This document shows positions 32,190 to 39,622 of a stretch of DNA of 64,000 bases, piece by piece (the first letter of the stretch is position 1; each line of letters opens with the position of its first letter). Source of the DNA: Methanoculleus sp. (GTDB taxonomy: Archaea > Halobacteriota > Methanomicrobia > Methanomicrobiales > Methanoculleaceae); contig NZ_JAJGBK010000003.1 in assembly GCF_020696975.1 (NCBI RefSeq), positions 1-64,000 of the forward strand, in the 5' to 3' direction. Under the pieces are notes generated by a model. The model made no database searches, had not been told where the DNA came from, and saw only the letters and a program-made list of their open reading frames with translations. The translations under genes were made by a program, and so were the position numbers.

Positions 32190-32609
32190 ATGATGAAAAC
32201 TAGGGATACGACCATGGAGCAGTACGTCATCTCTGTCTCTTCGAGCGCGCGCGATCTCGCTCCCGTCATGATTTGCTTCCATGATCTGCTTGGCCGCCTG
32301 CCCGTCACGGCACGCTCCCGGGACCGCCCCGGGGTCAGGATCGAGGACGGAAAGGTCATTGACGAGGCCTACACGGGTCCCGTCCTCGAGAGGGTTCTGG
32401 CCGAAAACACCACACTGAGGGTCAGACCAGAAAGTGGGCCGTACAAAGGCATCCCGGTAGTGGTGGCACCGGTAAGGGACGATGAGGGCAGGGCCATCGG
32501 CGCGATCGGGATCGTCGATGTGACCGGCATCTTCGATCTGGTGGGCTTCATGGAGCAGAGCGCGGAGATCCGAAGACAGGTCTGCGGCGAGGAACCGGGT
32601 CGCCTGTAG
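32190..32609 (+). CDS. DUF2111 family protein
   Basis: A 139-residue protein matching the methanogen-restricted DUF2111 family. The fold looks PAS- or roadblock-like: an alpha/beta start (SSSARDLAPVMICFHDLLG), then KGIPVVVAPVRDDEGRAIGAIGIVDVTG, a strand-loop-strand segment typical of small-molecule sensor domains. Function unknown. It follows the previous gene by 7 bp and precedes birA by 10 bp. ATG at codon 9 (MEQYVISV) is an alternative start. Confidence 0.8.
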   Translation: MMKTRDTTMEQYVISVSSSARDLAPVMICFHDLLGRLPVTARSRDRPGVRIEDGKVIDEAYTGPVLERVLAENTTLRVRPESGPYKGIPVVVAPVRDDEGRAIGAIGIVDVTGIFDLVGFMEQSAEIRRQVCGEEPGRL

Positions 32610-32619
32610 CGGAAAGGTA

Positions 32620-33606
32620 ATGGACATGAAGGATACGGCAATCAATGTACTGAAGATTCTCGAAGAATCACCCGGCCCGGTATCGGGCGAGCGGATTGCA
32701 GAGCAACTGGGTGTCACCCGATCGGCTGTCTGGAAACAGGTGCGTGAACTCCGGAAGCTGGGATACAGTATATCGTCCTCACGGGTGGAAGGCTACCGCC
32801 TTGAGGCGCCGAGCAACAGACTCCTTCCGTACGAGATCCATAAAAGGCTCCGCACCCGGTTCATTGGAAAGCAGATCCGCCACTTTGACCGCACGGCTTC
32901 CACGAGCTGGATCGGGAAGAAACTTGCCGGCGAGACCGACCCGGAGAAACTGCACGGCATGGTGATCATCGCCGAGGAGCAGACCGGCGGGGTCGGAAGG
33001 CTTGGGCGCGCCTGGGTCTCGCCGGCCGGCGGCATCTGGGCCACCATCGTCTTAAAGCCGAAGATCCCGCTCGACCACCTCTTCATGATCACCATGGCCG
33101 GGTCGGTTGCGATTGCCCGTGCCATCCGCAAGGAGTACAACATCAGTGCCCTCATCAAGTGGCCTAACGACATCTTCATCGGGGACAAGAAAGTCGCCGG
33201 GCTGCTCCTGGAACTTGCTGCAGAGGCGGATACCGTGCATTACGCCCTGCTCGGGATCGGGATCGACGCGAACATATCGCTCGCCGAACTCTCGTCTCCC
33301 CTGAAGGATATCCTGACCTCGCTCGAGGCGGAGGTCGGCCACGAGGTCGACCGTGTGGCGCTGCTTGCCCGGGTTCTCCGGGAGTTCGAACTGCGCTATC
33401 AGCAGCTCGAAGACGGCGAATACGACTCCATCATCCGCGAGTGGAAGAGTCTCTCCATGACGATCGACCAGCGGGTGGTCATCAAGACGATCAACAAGAC
33501 CTTCGCGGGAGAGGCGATCGATATCGACGCCCACGGCGCTCTGATCATCCGCAAGGACAACGGGAAGGTTGAGCGGGTCATCGCCGGGGACTGTTTCCAG
33601 TTCTGA
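32620..33606 (+). CDS. birA: Biotin-protein ligase with HTH repressor domain (BirA)
   Basis: A 328-residue bifunctional BirA. Residues 1-60 form a winged helix (GERIAEQLGVTRSAVWKQV) that binds biotin operators; residues 75-270 are the ligase, with GGVGRLGRAWVSPAGGIW near 128, IKWPNDIFIGDKKVAGLL, and a C-terminal SH3-like domain. It attaches biotin to the EAMKMEN lysine of PycB encoded 5 kb downstream and should repress bioY through the operator at 33799. No other biotin-dependent enzyme is in the window. Confidence 0.95.
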   Translation: MDMKDTAINVLKILEESPGPVSGERIAEQLGVTRSAVWKQVRELRKLGYSISSSRVEGYRLEAPSNRLLPYEIHKRLRTRFIGKQIRHFDRTASTSWIGKKLAGETDPEKLHGMVIIAEEQTGGVGRLGRAWVSPAGGIWATIVLKPKIPLDHLFMITMAGSVAIARAIRKEYNISALIKWPNDIFIGDKKVAGLLLELAAEADTVHYALLGIGIDANISLAELSSPLKDILTSLEAEVGHEVDRVALLARVLREFELRYQQLEDGEYDSIIREWKSLSMTIDQRVVIKTINKTFAGEAIDIDAHGALIIRKDNGKVERVIAGDCFQF

Positions 33607-33798
33607 CCACTCATACACTTTTTAGGGTACCGGGCTCCGGGGAAGACCTTCCCCCGGTAACGGAACACCCTGAGAATTTTTTCCGAAGCATGTCTCCAGG
33701 ATCATCCGTCCACCTTACTGCCCTCTCCCGGCATTCTCCTGAGATTATGTGATGGGAGCCACCGGGATTACCCGGCGTTCGTGCATCAACAGACATTT

Positions 33799-33830
33799 AT
33801 GTCAACCACTCAAAATAAACAGGTTGACAT
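33799..33830 (+). promoter_or_regulatory. BirA-type biotin operator at bioY
   Basis: ATGTCAACC - 14 bases - GGTTGACAT is a perfect 9-bp inverted repeat. The known BirA box has the form TTGTAAACC-N14/15-GGTTTACAA, so spacing and the AACC/GGTT core agree. A TATA-like ACATTTAT overlaps its left edge and the bioY ATG lies in its right arm, so bound BirA should block transcription. Confidence 0.85.
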
Positions 33831-34329
33831 GATCCACAGGGCCCGGATTCTCGCCTACAGCGGTACCTTCATCGCGCTGATCGCCGCCGGGAGCTGGATC
33901 TCCATCCCGCTGCCCCCGGTCCCGCTCACGCTCCAGACCCTCTTTGTGCTCCTTGCCGGCATCGTCATGAAGCGGTACGCGGTGATACCGGTCGGGCTTT
34001 ACGTCCTCCTCGGGGCGGCGAACCTTCCCATCTTTCATAACGGCACGGCGGGCCTCGGGGTGCTCCTCGGCCCCACGGGCGGGTTCCTGATCGGCTTCAT
34101 CCCCGCCGCCCTCGTCGCCGGGATCGCCTACGAACACGAATCACCGGCATCGCGGATCACAGGGCTGATCGCGGCCTGTGCAATCTATCTCCTGGCTGGC
34201 GCCGTATGGCTTTCATATTCGGCTTCGATCCCGCTTCTTCAGGCGGTCCTGCTCGGCGTCGCCCCGTTTATCATCGGCGATGCCGTGAAGGCTGCAGCCG
34301 CATACGCCATAGGGAAGCGGGTGGCATGA
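33829..34329 (+). CDS. bioY: Biotin transporter substrate-binding subunit BioY
   Basis: A 166-residue BioY, the S component of the ECF biotin importer. The start is set at ATG 33829 (MIHRARILAYSGTFIAL): it is the first codon after the operator arm and is 30 bp from the TATA element, fitting a leaderless message. The earlier GTG and ATG would put the operator inside the gene. Six membrane helices are predicted with IPLPPVPLTLQTLFVLLAG and NGTAGLGVLLGPTGGFLIGF, the BioY signatures. It overlaps the next gene by 4 bp. Confidence 0.95.
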   Translation: MIHRARILAYSGTFIALIAAGSWISIPLPPVPLTLQTLFVLLAGIVMKRYAVIPVGLYVLLGAANLPIFHNGTAGLGVLLGPTGGFLIGFIPAALVAGIAYEHESPASRITGLIAACAIYLLAGAVWLSYSASIPLLQAVLLGVAPFIIGDAVKAAAAYAIGKRVA

Positions 34330-34997
34330 TCCGCATCACCGGTCTCCGACACCGGCTGCTCGACATCCCCGGCCTTGCGGTGGATGCGCGCCACATTGCC
34401 GTGATCGGGCCGAACGGGAGCGGCAAGACGACGTTGCTCTCGGTCTGCTCCGGGATCGAGGAGCCCGAAGCAGGATCTGTCCTGCTCCTCGACCGTCCGC
34501 CGTCCGCCGTGAAGATAGGATGGGTGGGGGAGTTCCCCGACCGGACGCTCCTCTTCTCCCGGGTCTACGACGAGATCGCATCGACGCCCCGGTTCCGCCA
34601 CCGCCCCTGCCCCGAGACGGACAGGGCGGTCCGGGCGGTTGCGGAGGTTGTCGGCATCCGCCACCTCCTCGGCAAGAAGGTCGCGGCCCTCTCCGGGGGG
34701 GAGAAGGCGCTCGTTGCGCTGGCCGCCGCCTGCGCCGGCGACCCCGAGGTGCTCGTCCTGGACGAGGCTGATTCGCACCTGGACGGCGTGACCGCGGAGC
34801 GCGTCCAGCGCGTGGTGCGGGAGAGCGCCGCAGCCCACGTGCTCTGGTGCACGCAGTCGATGGACGTTGCGGCTACCGCGGACTGCGTTCTCTTTATGGA
34901 GAACGGCCGCGTCAGGCACCACGGCACGCCGGAGGAGGTCTTCTCCGCGCTCGAGGAGACGTGCTTTTACCCCACGCTCTGGAGGGTGTCCCGGTGA
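34326..34997 (+). CDS. ECF transporter ATPase A
   Basis: A 223-residue ABC ATPase starting at ATG 34326 (MIRITGLRHRLLDIPGL). Walker A is GPNGSGKTTLL near residue 31, the signature is ALSGGEKALVALAAA near 125, and Walker B is EVLVLDEADSHLD; the switch histidine region has a WCTQSMD sequence where many transporters have TH, a noticeable substitution. It powers biotin uptake together with its downstream paralogue, EcfT and BioY. Four-base overlaps with both neighbours indicate coupling. Confidence 0.93.
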   Translation: MIRITGLRHRLLDIPGLAVDARHIAVIGPNGSGKTTLLSVCSGIEEPEAGSVLLLDRPPSAVKIGWVGEFPDRTLLFSRVYDEIASTPRFRHRPCPETDRAVRAVAEVVGIRHLLGKKVAALSGGEKALVALAAACAGDPEVLVLDEADSHLDGVTAERVQRVVRESAAAHVLWCTQSMDVAATADCVLFMENGRVRHHGTPEEVFSALEETCFYPTLWRVSR

Positions 34998-35692
34998 GAG
35001 TCGAACTTGCGGATCTCGTCTTTTCGCAGGATTCGTTCACCCTCCGGGGTAGCGGCACGTTCGACGAAGGCGTGCACCTGGTCAGCGGGCCGGTGGGGAG
35101 CGGGAAGTCGACGCTGGCTCTTCTGCTTGCGGGGCTCCTCCGGCCCGAACGCGGGGCCGTCCGGCGGCACGGCGTTCTGACGACGCAGCTCCTGCTGCAG
35201 TTCCCCGAGCACCACATCACCTCCCCGACGATCGCCGGGGAGGCGGCTTCCTGGGGACTTGTGCCGGAGGACGCGCTCGCGCTGGCGGAGTTGTCGGCGC
35301 GTGCGGACGACGACCCGTTCCACCTCTCCCGCGGCGAACTCAAGCGGCTGACCCTCGCCTGCGCGCTCCTGAGAGATCCTGACCTGCTGCTGCTGGACGA
35401 ACCGTTCAGTTCTCTTGACTGCACCGCGAAGAGGAGGGCCTGCAGGATGCTCGAGAAGCGGGATGCCGGCATCACGGTCGTCTTCTCGCACGAACGCGCG
35501 GTTCTTCCCCGGGTGGACGCGATCTGGGAGATGGAGGAAGGCGTTCTCGCGGCCCGCGGCAGTGTGCCCGACGCGATCCCATCCTGGCAGCACGCCCCGC
35601 CGTATCTCAGGTGCGCTCTGGAACAGGGCGCCCGTCCTATGAACATCAGGCTCTCCGACGCCCGGGAGGCGCTATGCAGGATCCGCGGCTGA
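34994..35692 (+). CDS. ECF transporter ATPase A'
   Basis: A 232-residue second ABC ATPase; the start is GTG 34994 (reads VRVELADLVFSQ), overlapping the previous stop as GTGA, rather than the long upstream ORF start. Walker A GPVGSGKSTLALLL near residue 32, signature LSRGELKRLTLA, Walker B LLLLDEPFSSLD, and a FSHERAV switch histidine. Compared with its partner it keeps the canonical switch, so the pair may be functionally asymmetric. It overlaps ecfT by 19 bp. Confidence 0.93.
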   Translation: MRVELADLVFSQDSFTLRGSGTFDEGVHLVSGPVGSGKSTLALLLAGLLRPERGAVRRHGVLTTQLLLQFPEHHITSPTIAGEAASWGLVPEDALALAELSARADDDPFHLSRGELKRLTLACALLRDPDLLLLDEPFSSLDCTAKRRACRMLEKRDAGITVVFSHERAVLPRVDAIWEMEEGVLAARGSVPDAIPSWQHAPPYLRCALEQGARPMNIRLSDAREALCRIRG

Positions 35693-36327
35693 GGCTGCTT
35701 GTCACCGTTGTCCTCTCGCTTGCTGCGTTTGCAAGCACGGCGGGAGCCGTCGCCGCCCTGGTCTGGTGGCTGCTTGCGACACCGCGCACAAAGGTCCTCC
35801 CGCGACCGGGCGTGCTCCTCTCCCTGATTGCGATGATCGCCGCCACAGCGCTCGTATCCGCGTGGGGAGGCGGGCCGGGCCTCTCGTACTTCGTCCGGAT
35901 GACCGTGGTCCTGCTGCTTGCTGCGTGGGCATATGCCGAGACGGAGGAAGGGGAGATGCTTGCCGTGGCGGTCTGGGCACTCGGTAACCGGATAGGATTC
36001 GAGATCGGGCTCATTGCCGAGATGGGGATTGGGGGCCTTGCGGTGATCCGGCAGGACATCGAGCATGTGCGAATAGCGATGGCGCTGAAGGGGATCCGGC
36101 CGGGGATCCGCTCGATCGTCCCGCTCGCCGTCACCCTTATCGTCACAGAGATCCGGCGATCTGAGGAGATCGCAAGGCTTCTCGCCGTACGGGGCTATAC
36201 GCTCGGGGGGCGGATCAGTCCGCGATTCAGAACAGGCTCAAAGGATGTTCTGGCATCCCTATCGGCCGTAATTCTCGGGTTTTTATCCTGCCTGTCTCTT
36301 CGCGACGTTTTTATATTATTAGGATGA
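35674..36327 (+). CDS. ECF transporter transmembrane subunit EcfT
   Basis: A 217-residue EcfT coupling subunit starting at ATG 35674 (MQDPRLRLLVTVV). Hydrophobic helices occupy the first 110 residues; the C-terminal cytoplasmic coupling helices carry two Ala-Arg-Gly-like motifs, AMALKGIRPG near 138 and LLAVRGYTLGGR near 175, which dock on the ATPases. Its neighbour order bioY-A-A'-T forms a dedicated group I-like ECF importer for biotin. Confidence 0.9.
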   Translation: MQDPRLRLLVTVVLSLAAFASTAGAVAALVWWLLATPRTKVLPRPGVLLSLIAMIAATALVSAWGGGPGLSYFVRMTVVLLLAAWAYAETEEGEMLAVAVWALGNRIGFEIGLIAEMGIGGLAVIRQDIEHVRIAMALKGIRPGIRSIVPLAVTLIVTEIRRSEEIARLLAVRGYTLGGRISPRFRTGSKDVLASLSAVILGFLSCLSLRDVFILLG

Positions 36328-36381: not shown

Positions 36382-38130
36382 ATGTGTGCTGCCAAATTTG
36401 ATACACTCAATATAACCGACACCACGCTTAGGGACGCGCATCAGTCACTCATCGCCACCCGGCTGCGGACTGAGGACATGCTCCCTCTTGCCCGTGCTAT
36501 CGATGACGTAGGCTTCTTCTCTGTCGAAGCCTGGGGCGGGGCGACCTTTGACAGCTGCATCAGGTTCCTCAACGACGATCCCTGGGATCGTCTCCGGATG
36601 CTGAAGGCTGAACTTCGGCGCACGCCCATACAGATGCTCCTGCGGGGCCAGAACCTTGTAGGTTACCGGCATTACCCTGACGACGTGGTGGAGAAGTTCG
36701 TGGAGGCGTCGGCACGAAACGGGGTCGACATCTTCCGGGTCTTTGACGCGCTGAACGATATCAGGAACATGAAGAAAGCGATGGAGGAGGTCCAGAACGT
36801 CGGCGCGCACCTGCAGGGTGCGATATCCTACACGACAAGCCCGGTCCACTCCGTCACGACCTTCATCGATATGGCGCAGGAACTCTATGCGCTCGGCTGC
36901 GACTCGATCTGCATCAAGGACATGGCCGGCCTGATCATGCCCCACGATGCCCGCGACCTGATCTCGGGGATCAAGAAGGCAGCAGACGTCAAGGTCTGCC
37001 TCCACTCCCACTGCACGAGTGGCGTCGCGCCCCTGAGTTACCAGGCGGCGATCGATGCGGGCGTGGACATCCTTGATACCGCCATGTCACCGTTCGCCCT
37101 CGGCACCTCCCAGCCGCCGACGGAGAGCGTTGTCGCGAGTGTCGCCGGAACGCCGCGCGATACGGGGATCGACCTCATCAAGCTCCGCAAGGTCAGGAAC
37201 ATCTGCCGCGAGATGCGCGAGAAGTACGAACCGCTCTTCTCCGCCATCGCTGACCGGGTCGACTCCGACGTCCTGATCTACCAGCTCCCGGGCGGCATGA
37301 TCTCAAACCTTGTCTCGCAGCTCAAGGAGCAGGACGCGCTCGACCGGCTGGACGAGGTGCTCCACGAGATCCCCCGGGTGAGGAAGGACCTCGGCTACCC
37401 GCCGCTCGTGACGCCGACAAGCCAGATCGTGGGCACCCAGGCGGTCTTCAACGTCCTGATGGGCGGGCGCTACCGGAACGTGACGACAGAGGTGAAAGAC
37501 TACGTCCGCGGCCTCTACGGTCGCTCCCCCGCCCCGATCAGTCCCGAGGTGCGGGAGGAGATCATCGGCGACGAGGAGCCGGTCGCGGTCCGCCCGGCCG
37601 ACCTTCTCGCGCCCATCTACGAGCAGATGCGGGCTGAGGCGAAGGAACAGGGACTCGTCACCCGGGAAGAGGATGTTCTCACCTACATCATCTACCCAAG
37701 CGTCGCTCCCTCCTTCCTCCGGGGCGAGCGCCAGGCCGAAGTGATCCCCGAGACGGTAGTGGCCGTACCGGGGAGCATTCCGGATATTCCCCGCACCATG
37801 GAGGTGGAGGTGGACGGCGAGATCTTCTCGGTCCGTATCGTCACCGTCGAGGGGAACTCGGTCAGGGGTTCGGAGGCCACACAGTCGGCAAAAGAGAGGA
37901 TCCCCCGCGGGGAGGTCGCCGGCGGCGTCAAGAGCAACATGCAGGGCATGGTCCTGAAGGTGATGACCGAGCGTGGGAGCACCGTCAAGAAGGGGGATAC
38001 CCTCATCGTCCTCGAGGCGATGAAGATGGAGAACCCCATCCGCAGCCCCCACGACGGCACGGTCTCGGAGATCTTCGTGGATGCCGGCGATGTCGTGCAG
38101 AACGGCGACGTGCTGATGGTCATTGAATGA
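36382..38130 (+). CDS. pycB: Pyruvate carboxylase subunit B (carboxyltransferase and biotin carrier)
   Basis: A 582-residue PycB, which carboxylates pyruvate to oxaloacetate with biotin-bound CO2. Residues 1-300 form a TIM barrel ([37 protein letters not shown] with metal histidines), 300-450 the conserved carboxylase domain, and the C-terminal 80 residues the biotinyl domain with biotinylation site [19 protein letters not shown] lies 11 bp before ATG. pycA follows; the ligase and importer precede. Oxaloacetate feeds the partial reductive TCA path in methanogens. Confidence 0.97.
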
Positions 38131-38146
38131 GAGGCTGGCCAGGGAG

Positions 38147-39622
38147 ATGAAATACTTCGATAAGATCCTGATCGCCAACCGCGGCGAGATCGCCATCCGG
38201 GTCATGCGCGCCTGCCGGGAACTGGGTATCGACACGGTTGCCATCTACTCCGATCCCGACAGGAACGCGCTCCACGTCAAGTATGCCGACGAGGCGTTCA
38301 ACGTCGGGGAAGCGCACCCGTCGAAGAGTTACCTCAACAAGGAGCGGATCTGTGACGTGGCGAGGAAGACCGGGGCCGAGGCGATCCACCCGGGCTACGG
38401 GTTCCTCGCGGAGAACGCCGGGTTTGCAAAACTGGTCGAGGACGAAGGGCTGACGTTCATCGGGCCTTCGTGGAAGACGATCGAGGCGCTGGGCTCGAAG
38501 ATCGGGTCGAAACGGATGATGCGCGAGGCCGGCGTCCCGGTCCTTCCGGGCACGCCGGAAGGCGTCACGAGCGTCGATGCGGCGAAGAAGGTCGCCGCAG
38601 AGATCGGCTACCCGGTGATCGTGAAGGCGAGCGCGGGCGGCGGCGGTATCGGCATGCATATCGCCGAGAACGAGGAGCAACTTGAGGAGGCGATCGACAA
38701 GGGGATGCGGATTGCCCAGTCCGCCTTCGGGGACCCGACGATCTTTGTCGAGAAGTACCTCACGAAACCGCGCCACATCGAGATCCAGGTTCTTGCGGAC
38801 GCGAAGGGGCACACCGTCCACCTCTACGACCGCGAGTGCTCGATCCAGCGCCGGCACCAGAAGCTGCTCGAGGAGGCGCCCTGCCCGATCATGACGCCCA
38901 CCCTCCGGGAGCAGATGACGGCGTCGGCCATCGCCGCGGCAAAGGCGGCGAACTATAAGAACGCCGGGACGGTCGAGTTCCTCTACGCGAACGGCAACTA
39001 CTACTTCATGGAGGTGAACACCCGGCTGCAGGTGGAGCACACGGTCACGGAGTTCATCACCGGGATCGATATGGTGAAGCAGCAGATTGCCGTCGCCGCC
39101 GGTGAGGACCTCGCGATGGACCAGGAGGATATCGGCATCCGGGGGCACGCGATCGAGTGCCGGATCAACGCTGAGGATCCCCTGAACAACTTCACCGCCG
39201 ATCCGGGGAAGATTGTCCGTTACCGCTCCCCCGGGGGGCCGGGGATACGGGTCGACTCCGGCATCCACATGGGCTACACCATCCCGGCCCACTACGACTC
39301 GATGATCTCGAAGCTCTGCGCGCTCGGCTCCAACCGCGAGGAGGCAATCCAGCGGATGCGCCGGGCCATCTACGAGTATGTCATCCTGGGCGTGAAGACG
39401 ACGCTCCCGCTCCACTACGCGATCATGCAGAACGCCCACTTCATCGCCGGCGACACGCACACGCACTTCCTGCAGGAGGAGCATATCGCAACGGATCTCC
39501 GCCGCTATCTCCACGATGAGGAGGCGCGTATGCAGACGCTGGCCGCGTCGCTCCGGCAGGGGAAGCACGTGGCGGCGATCGGCGCAGCGGTCGAGGTGTA
39601 TCTCCGGAAAAACCTGAAGTAA
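38147..39622 (+). CDS. pycA: Pyruvate carboxylase subunit A (biotin carboxylase)
   Basis: A 491-residue biotin carboxylase. I start at ATG 38147 ([16 protein letters not shown]) with GAGG 12 bp upstream; the ORF's TTG start overlapping pycB is unlikely. ATP-grasp features: [17 protein letters not shown] near 165, the biotin- and bicarbonate-binding [14 protein letters not shown] near 285, and [14 protein letters not shown] near 330. It carboxylates the biotin on PycB using ATP and bicarbonate. A hairpin with an internal T-run follows the stop immediately. Confidence 0.97.

Follow-up and report, generated by a model that had tools for sequence, protein, structure and literature searches.

Predicted BirA operators at the biotin importer gene bioY and, in many relatives, at ppcA suggest a biotin-saving switch in Methanomicrobiales

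The DNA analyzed here (the window, a 64-kb stretch of a Methanoculleus genome) carries, on the + strand, the gene birA (32620-33606), which encodes a group II biotin protein ligase/repressor. Its product combines an N-terminal winged helix-turn-helix (HTH) domain with a ligase and a C-terminal domain (HTH_11, 2e-14; BPL_LplA_LipB, 6e-20; BPL_C, 6e-10), has the recognition helix GVTRSAVWKQVR, and matches BirA structures in the PDB (6apw, E = 1.6e-38; E. coli 1bia, E = 3.8e-24). A gene for a DUF2111 protein (32190-32609) lies directly 5' of birA. Downstream of birA, bioY (33829-34329, + strand; Pfam BioY, 6.7e-37) encodes the substrate-binding (S) component of an ECF biotin transporter and represents the predicted direct target of the operator described below. 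It is followed on the same strand by an EcfA-type ABC ATPase gene (34326-34997; ABC_tran, 5e-20), which overlaps the bioY stop, a second ABC ATPase ORF of EcfA' type (34847-35692; ABC_tran, 4.4e-15, residues 77-187), the true start of which is further in than the ORF start, a probable EcfT ORF with an uncertain start (35611-36327), pycB, which encodes the biotinylated subunit of pyruvate carboxylase (36382-38130; PYC_OADA, 1.5e-56; Biotin_lipoyl, 6e-19), and pycA, which encodes the biotin carboxylase subunit (38123-39622; CPSase_L_D2, Biotin_carb_N and Biotin_carb_C; ORF start at TTG 38123). Pfam matches bear out the gene labels of the original prediction for birA, bioY, the two ABC ATPases, pycB and pycA; the ecfT label is given by position only, as this ORF had no Pfam match at E ≤ 0.001.

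A perfect 9-bp inverted repeat, ATGTCAACC-N14-GGTTGACAT, begins 192 bp past the birA stop and occupies positions 33799-33830 (no strand assigned), exactly as originally claimed. The left half-site (ATGTCAACC, 33799-33807) is read on the + strand, and the right half-site (33822-33830, - strand; GGTTGACAT on the + strand) overlaps the bioY start codon. The palindrome has the AACC/GGTT core, the N14/15 spacer and the form of published BirA boxes (consensus TTGTAAACC-[N14/15]-GGTTTACAA; PMC545781), and it is nearly letter for letter the Desulfuromonas bioW box, aTGTcAACC-[N14]-GGTTgACAg (PMC545781, Table 1), which supports its identification as a BirA box. As in the known biotin regulon, this palindrome type is combined with an HTH-bearing BirA in the genome and with a biotin transport gene as target, in the promoter region of which the operator sits. 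As the site is an inverted repeat, it could also be read as an RNA or DNA structure (e.g., a terminator or a riboswitch-like hairpin) or as a chance repeat. We regard this as extremely improbable, since the operator is the single match in the window at ≤ 3 mismatches, where 0.02 would be expected by chance (shuffles), since no terminator-like site was found in the operator region, and since the right half overlaps a start codon. A sigma-70 promoter was not found in this region either. Moreover, the half-site core is fixed (GTCAACC is almost invariant in a position weight matrix of 84 half-sites), whereas the 14-nt spacer varies freely. At the same threshold of ≤ 3 mismatches, the operator is also the sole match in the whole 2.29-Mb assembly. 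Overall, the palindrome at 33799-33830 is a predicted BirA operator placed to shut off the biotin importer.

A TATA-like ATTTAT (33795-33800, + strand; ATTTTTATT or ATTTTTCTT in relatives) is located approx. 30 bp before the bioY ATG, and from this distance we infer that the bioY mRNA is leaderless or nearly so. Among the six families of the order Methanomicrobiales (coded f1 to f6; G and L codes denote genomes and loci, respectively), the T-rich element immediately 5' of the operator is conserved in f1, and the right half-site overlaps or abuts the ATG in f1, f5 and f6. Assignment of ATG 33829 as the bioY start, which had been proposed from the operator position, is supported by relatives with an N15 spacer (e.g., L003 and L030), where an in-frame TGA directly precedes the equivalent ATG; in the window genome an alternative in-frame ATG is found at 33799, the equivalent frame of which is closed in relatives of the L003/L030 type. 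The analysis likewise supports an operator that spans the core promoter and the start of bioY. As the frame of the operator relative to the ATG varies among the genomes of the family (N14 or N15 spacer), what is conserved is the DNA rather than a coding extension.

The proposal of a closed local circuit was not upheld. In the scanned loci, the 200 bp 5' of birA contained no BirA box, and autoregulation of birA was thus rejected. The pycBA genes were also rejected as an operator target, as no box lies upstream of them; a TATA-like TTTATATTAT without a BirA box (36310-36319, + strand) precedes pycB, which suggests that pycBA has its own promoter. PycB would thus contribute biotin demand, and, with no box at birA or pycBA, the feedback would run through biotin supply only. 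One pattern match inside pycB of locus L105 is intragenic and was taken as chance.

The sites, their positions and conservation, the genes that they precede and their covariation with the BirA helix can be read directly from the genomes. The original prediction had staked its claim on a palindrome conserved near bioY in relatives, and the claim survives. Among 40 genomes of the family, bioY is present in 39, and when their upstream regions are aligned, the box occupies an equivalent position in most of them. The same 40 genomes contain 54 exact-form sites (42 at bioY, 10 at ppcA and 2 elsewhere), as compared to 2 sites for a reversed control pattern. Across the order, 87 of 150 genomes carry the exact form, mostly at bioY, and the bioY box is conserved in four of the six families (f1, f2, f5 and f6), with a variant in one genus. 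In genus g20 of f6 (L162-L164, L309-L312, L314 and L315), the bioY box reads TTGTTAACC-N14-GGTTAACAA and the BirA helix reads SRTAVWK, i.e., operator and helix have changed as a matched pair. A search at the class level returned Methanomicrobiales only; in a phylum-level sample, other families of archaea also had boxes at bioY.

A tandem second box occurs in 13 f1 genomes, centered 39-41 bp upstream of the first (at 40 or 40.5 bp in 10 of the 13), with the T-rich TATA-like element between the two copies. Several other genomes have an intact upstream copy only, and the lineage of the window genome has the proximal copy only. An upstream copy centered 40 bp away could in principle recruit factors, so that BirA would enhance bioY and ppcA, or act at a dual site, instead of repressing. 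The proximal copy, however, overlaps the stretch from TATA to start, and all characterized BirA regulons are, to our knowledge, repressed; activation by BirA thus seems very unlikely to us, and we retain repression as the preferred reading.

The BirA recognition helix was read in 120 genomes. The form [ST]R[SATL][AST][VI]WK was found in nearly all operator-bearing genomes, while families f3 and f4 have diverged helices (IPRSTVSHH, IPGSSVARH, IPISSVTRQ, VPLSRVRAD and others) and no operator. Helix and operator were both present in 95 genomes and both absent in 22, and only 3 (G012, G034 and G102) were discordant (P = 1e-20, raw Fisher's exact test that ignores phylogeny). On a tree built from just the BirA catalytic domain, 5 changes are seen for each trait, and 2 to 3 of 4 independent pairs are concordant and 0 opposite, a number too small for significance. 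The operator is absent also in G155 (LSKSAVWK), G078 (ISGSTVWK) and G137. Among the discordant genomes, G012 has the helix ISQSAVWK, in which Arg is replaced by Gln, and its boxes are weakened at bioY as well as at ppcA; in G102 the helix is normal and there is no box, with birA and bioY only approx. 19 bp apart; and G034 lacks the box with a helix that is almost normal (TRSVVWK). The bioY (L010) and ppcA (L052) boxes of G034 have decayed at the same positions, with GGCTTGCA replacing GGTTGACA on the right side. A shift of operator specificity is possible in this genome.

Three f3 genomes of genus g18 (L160, L161 and L278) encode a BirA without the N-terminal HTH domain and have no operator, with a gap of approx. 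14 bp between birA and bioY in L160 and L161; by its domain content, this BirA represents a natural conversion from group II to group I. Boxes were thus confined to genomes in which BirA contains a DNA-binding domain. In f4 genomes (e.g., L151-L156, L187 and L188), birA and bioY are approx. 19-20 bp apart, the HTH domain is kept with a changed helix, and there is no recognizable operator, so that this BirA may recognize a different sequence or no sequence at all. The joint loss of operator and recognition helix in relatives supports BirA as the cognate factor of the box, as had been proposed. With regard to the ligase itself, the KWPND motif is present in 117 of the 120 BirA proteins, and almost every BirA of the order has QTGGxGR(L/M)GR in place of the canonical GRGRxG motif (GGxGRxGR in the window BirA), i.e., its first Arg is replaced by V, I, F, T or L and its second Arg is kept. 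This departure from the canonical motif weighs against the regulatory model preferred here.

The proposed box identity, its location, its conservation and BirA as the factor are thus supported; the list of targets was incomplete, as both the tandem operators and a second predicted target, ppcA, both seen in relatives, had been missed. This gene encodes an archaeal-type phosphoenolpyruvate (PEP) carboxylase (PF14010, approx. 630-660 bits; PDB 3odm, E = 1.5e-45). PEP carboxylase yields oxaloacetate without biotin, while pyruvate carboxylase is biotin-dependent. A box was found upstream of 31 of 45 ppcA loci, including 14 of 15 in f1 (10 near perfect and 4 weaker), 13 of 13 in f2 and 4 of 4 in genus g16 of f5. 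No ppcA box was found in 11 f4 genomes, G155, G078 or G034, and the bioY box is also absent from these genomes wherever bioY was readable. In a set of 80 named archaeal and bacterial ppcA loci, only those of Methanomicrobiales had boxes (15-34 bits vs. ≤ 7.0 bits elsewhere), and none of the phylum-level sites outside the order whose loci were examined was at ppcA; these sites were at bioY or bioB-like genes. Boxed loci include those of Methanoculleus chikugoensis L21-II-0 and Methanogenium cariaci (L191 and L229); overall, ppcA loci from same-genus genomes match Methanoculleus, and those from other families match Methanogenium, Methanofollis, Methanoregula and Methanospirillum. The assembly of G018 contains two ppcA copies (L045 and L046), both boxed, one of them with the box 280 bp upstream. 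The MBL-fold gene 5' of ppcA was considered as well and is no obvious target, as it is codirectional with ppcA and upstream. Genomes of f1 have a T-rich TATA-like element immediately 5' of the box, at bioY as well as at ppcA, so that bound BirA would cover the core promoter; the f2 box at ppcA may instead lie downstream of the TATA element and not over it, so that the geometry of blocking would vary.

These data could also be explained if BirA controlled bioY only, and if the palindrome at ppcA were bound by another factor or were a functionless shared ancestral sequence. The window genome itself, which has just the bioY site, and the variable distance between the ppcA box and the start codon (approx. 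50 to 280 bp) are consistent with this explanation. Against it, the same 18 informative bases and the N14/15 spacing occur at genes without other homology, and the box is conserved even though f1 and f2 share only 57-64% identity in their ppcA proteins. In addition, the presence of the ppcA box follows that of the bioY box across genomes; where both genes were readable, 28 genomes have both boxes, 13 have neither and 0 are discordant (P = 6e-11, Fisher's exact test not corrected for phylogeny; the tally leaves out G012 with its weak boxes), and the boxes were lost together on three independent occasions (f4, G155/G078 and G034). We therefore consider control of bioY only to be unlikely. Overall, these observations argue, with a high degree of confidence, that BirA represses bioY-ecfAA'T import in the window genome and, in many relatives, biotin-independent ppcA as well, and that biotin shortage would free both.

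With biotin sufficient and apo-PycB scarce, BirA would carry biotinyl-5'-AMP, and once PycB is fully biotinylated, the loaded form would accumulate. By analogy with BirA of E. coli and B. subtilis, this form would bind DNA and repress, i.e., it would dimerize on the operator, cover the DNA from the TATA-like element through to the start codon and prevent bioY-ecfAA'T from being transcribed. With biotin short or apo-PycB abundant, BirA would leave the operator and the importer would be expressed. In many relatives with ppcA, the same BirA would also repress the biotin-independent PEP carboxylase, and, judging from gene content, biotin shortage would switch on import together with a biotin-free route to oxaloacetate. 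PEP carboxylase is an addition to the biotin enzyme and not its replacement, as each of the 150 sampled genomes in which ppcA is complete also has PYC_OADA and thus pyruvate carboxylase. The window genome had no PF14010 match (assembly 95% complete) and bears only the bioY (import) branch because it lacks ppcA. We consider it likely, on these comparisons, that the BirA of Methanomicrobiales acts as a biotin-sparing isozyme switch, in which the enzyme that biotinylates pyruvate carboxylase also controls import and PEP carboxylase, so that the oxaloacetate-forming enzyme would change when biotin is lacking.

A parallel is provided by the B12 riboswitch on metE, through which cofactor sufficiency represses a cofactor-independent isozyme. 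The switch proposed here would likewise repress the isozyme without cofactor need when the cofactor is sufficient; it differs in that the regulator is a repressor protein and, at the same time, the enzyme that attaches the cofactor, the cofactor is biotin, the isozymes are PEP carboxylase and pyruvate carboxylase, and the organisms are archaea. A BirA/biotin regulon, with archaea included according to the title, was reportedly described by Rodionov, Mironov and Gelfand in 2002. In B. subtilis, BirA binds the bioO operator and the operators of BioY genes only with biotin and ATP (PMC4016012). The archaeal system would resemble that at yuiG and yhfU (BioY), in that a group II ligase represses BioY-type transporters; the promoter there is bacterial, however, and that study describes no PEP carboxylase target (PMC4016012). 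In the parts of a review of PEP-pyruvate-oxaloacetate metabolism available to us (PMC8100219), no allosteric activators of the archaeal-type PEP carboxylase PpcA are reported as known, and control of the archaeal enzyme by biotin or BirA is not mentioned. No link between BirA and PEP carboxylase or ppcA was found in the limited body of literature searched, by which novelty is unproven.

A BirA box at bioY is already known in kind, and the bioY site of the window genome alone is an ordinary case. The features that set the Methanomicrobiales apart from the known BirA biotin regulon are the additional target, ppcA, and, in part of Methanoculleus, the tandem boxes approx. 40 bp apart. The novelty thus lies in the regulon across relatives and not in the window genome, which has no ppcA; the ppcA box in these relatives points to an unreported biotin-saving switch. 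If this is true, the BirA regulon would extend, in archaea, from genes for obtaining biotin to a gene for avoiding the need for it, and the retention of pyruvate carboxylase alongside PEP carboxylase in many methanogens would find an explanation. Expression of ppcA and bioY would then rise together on biotin limitation, which is testable in culturable strains, and the choice of anaplerotic enzyme in digesters would be set by the biotin supply there.
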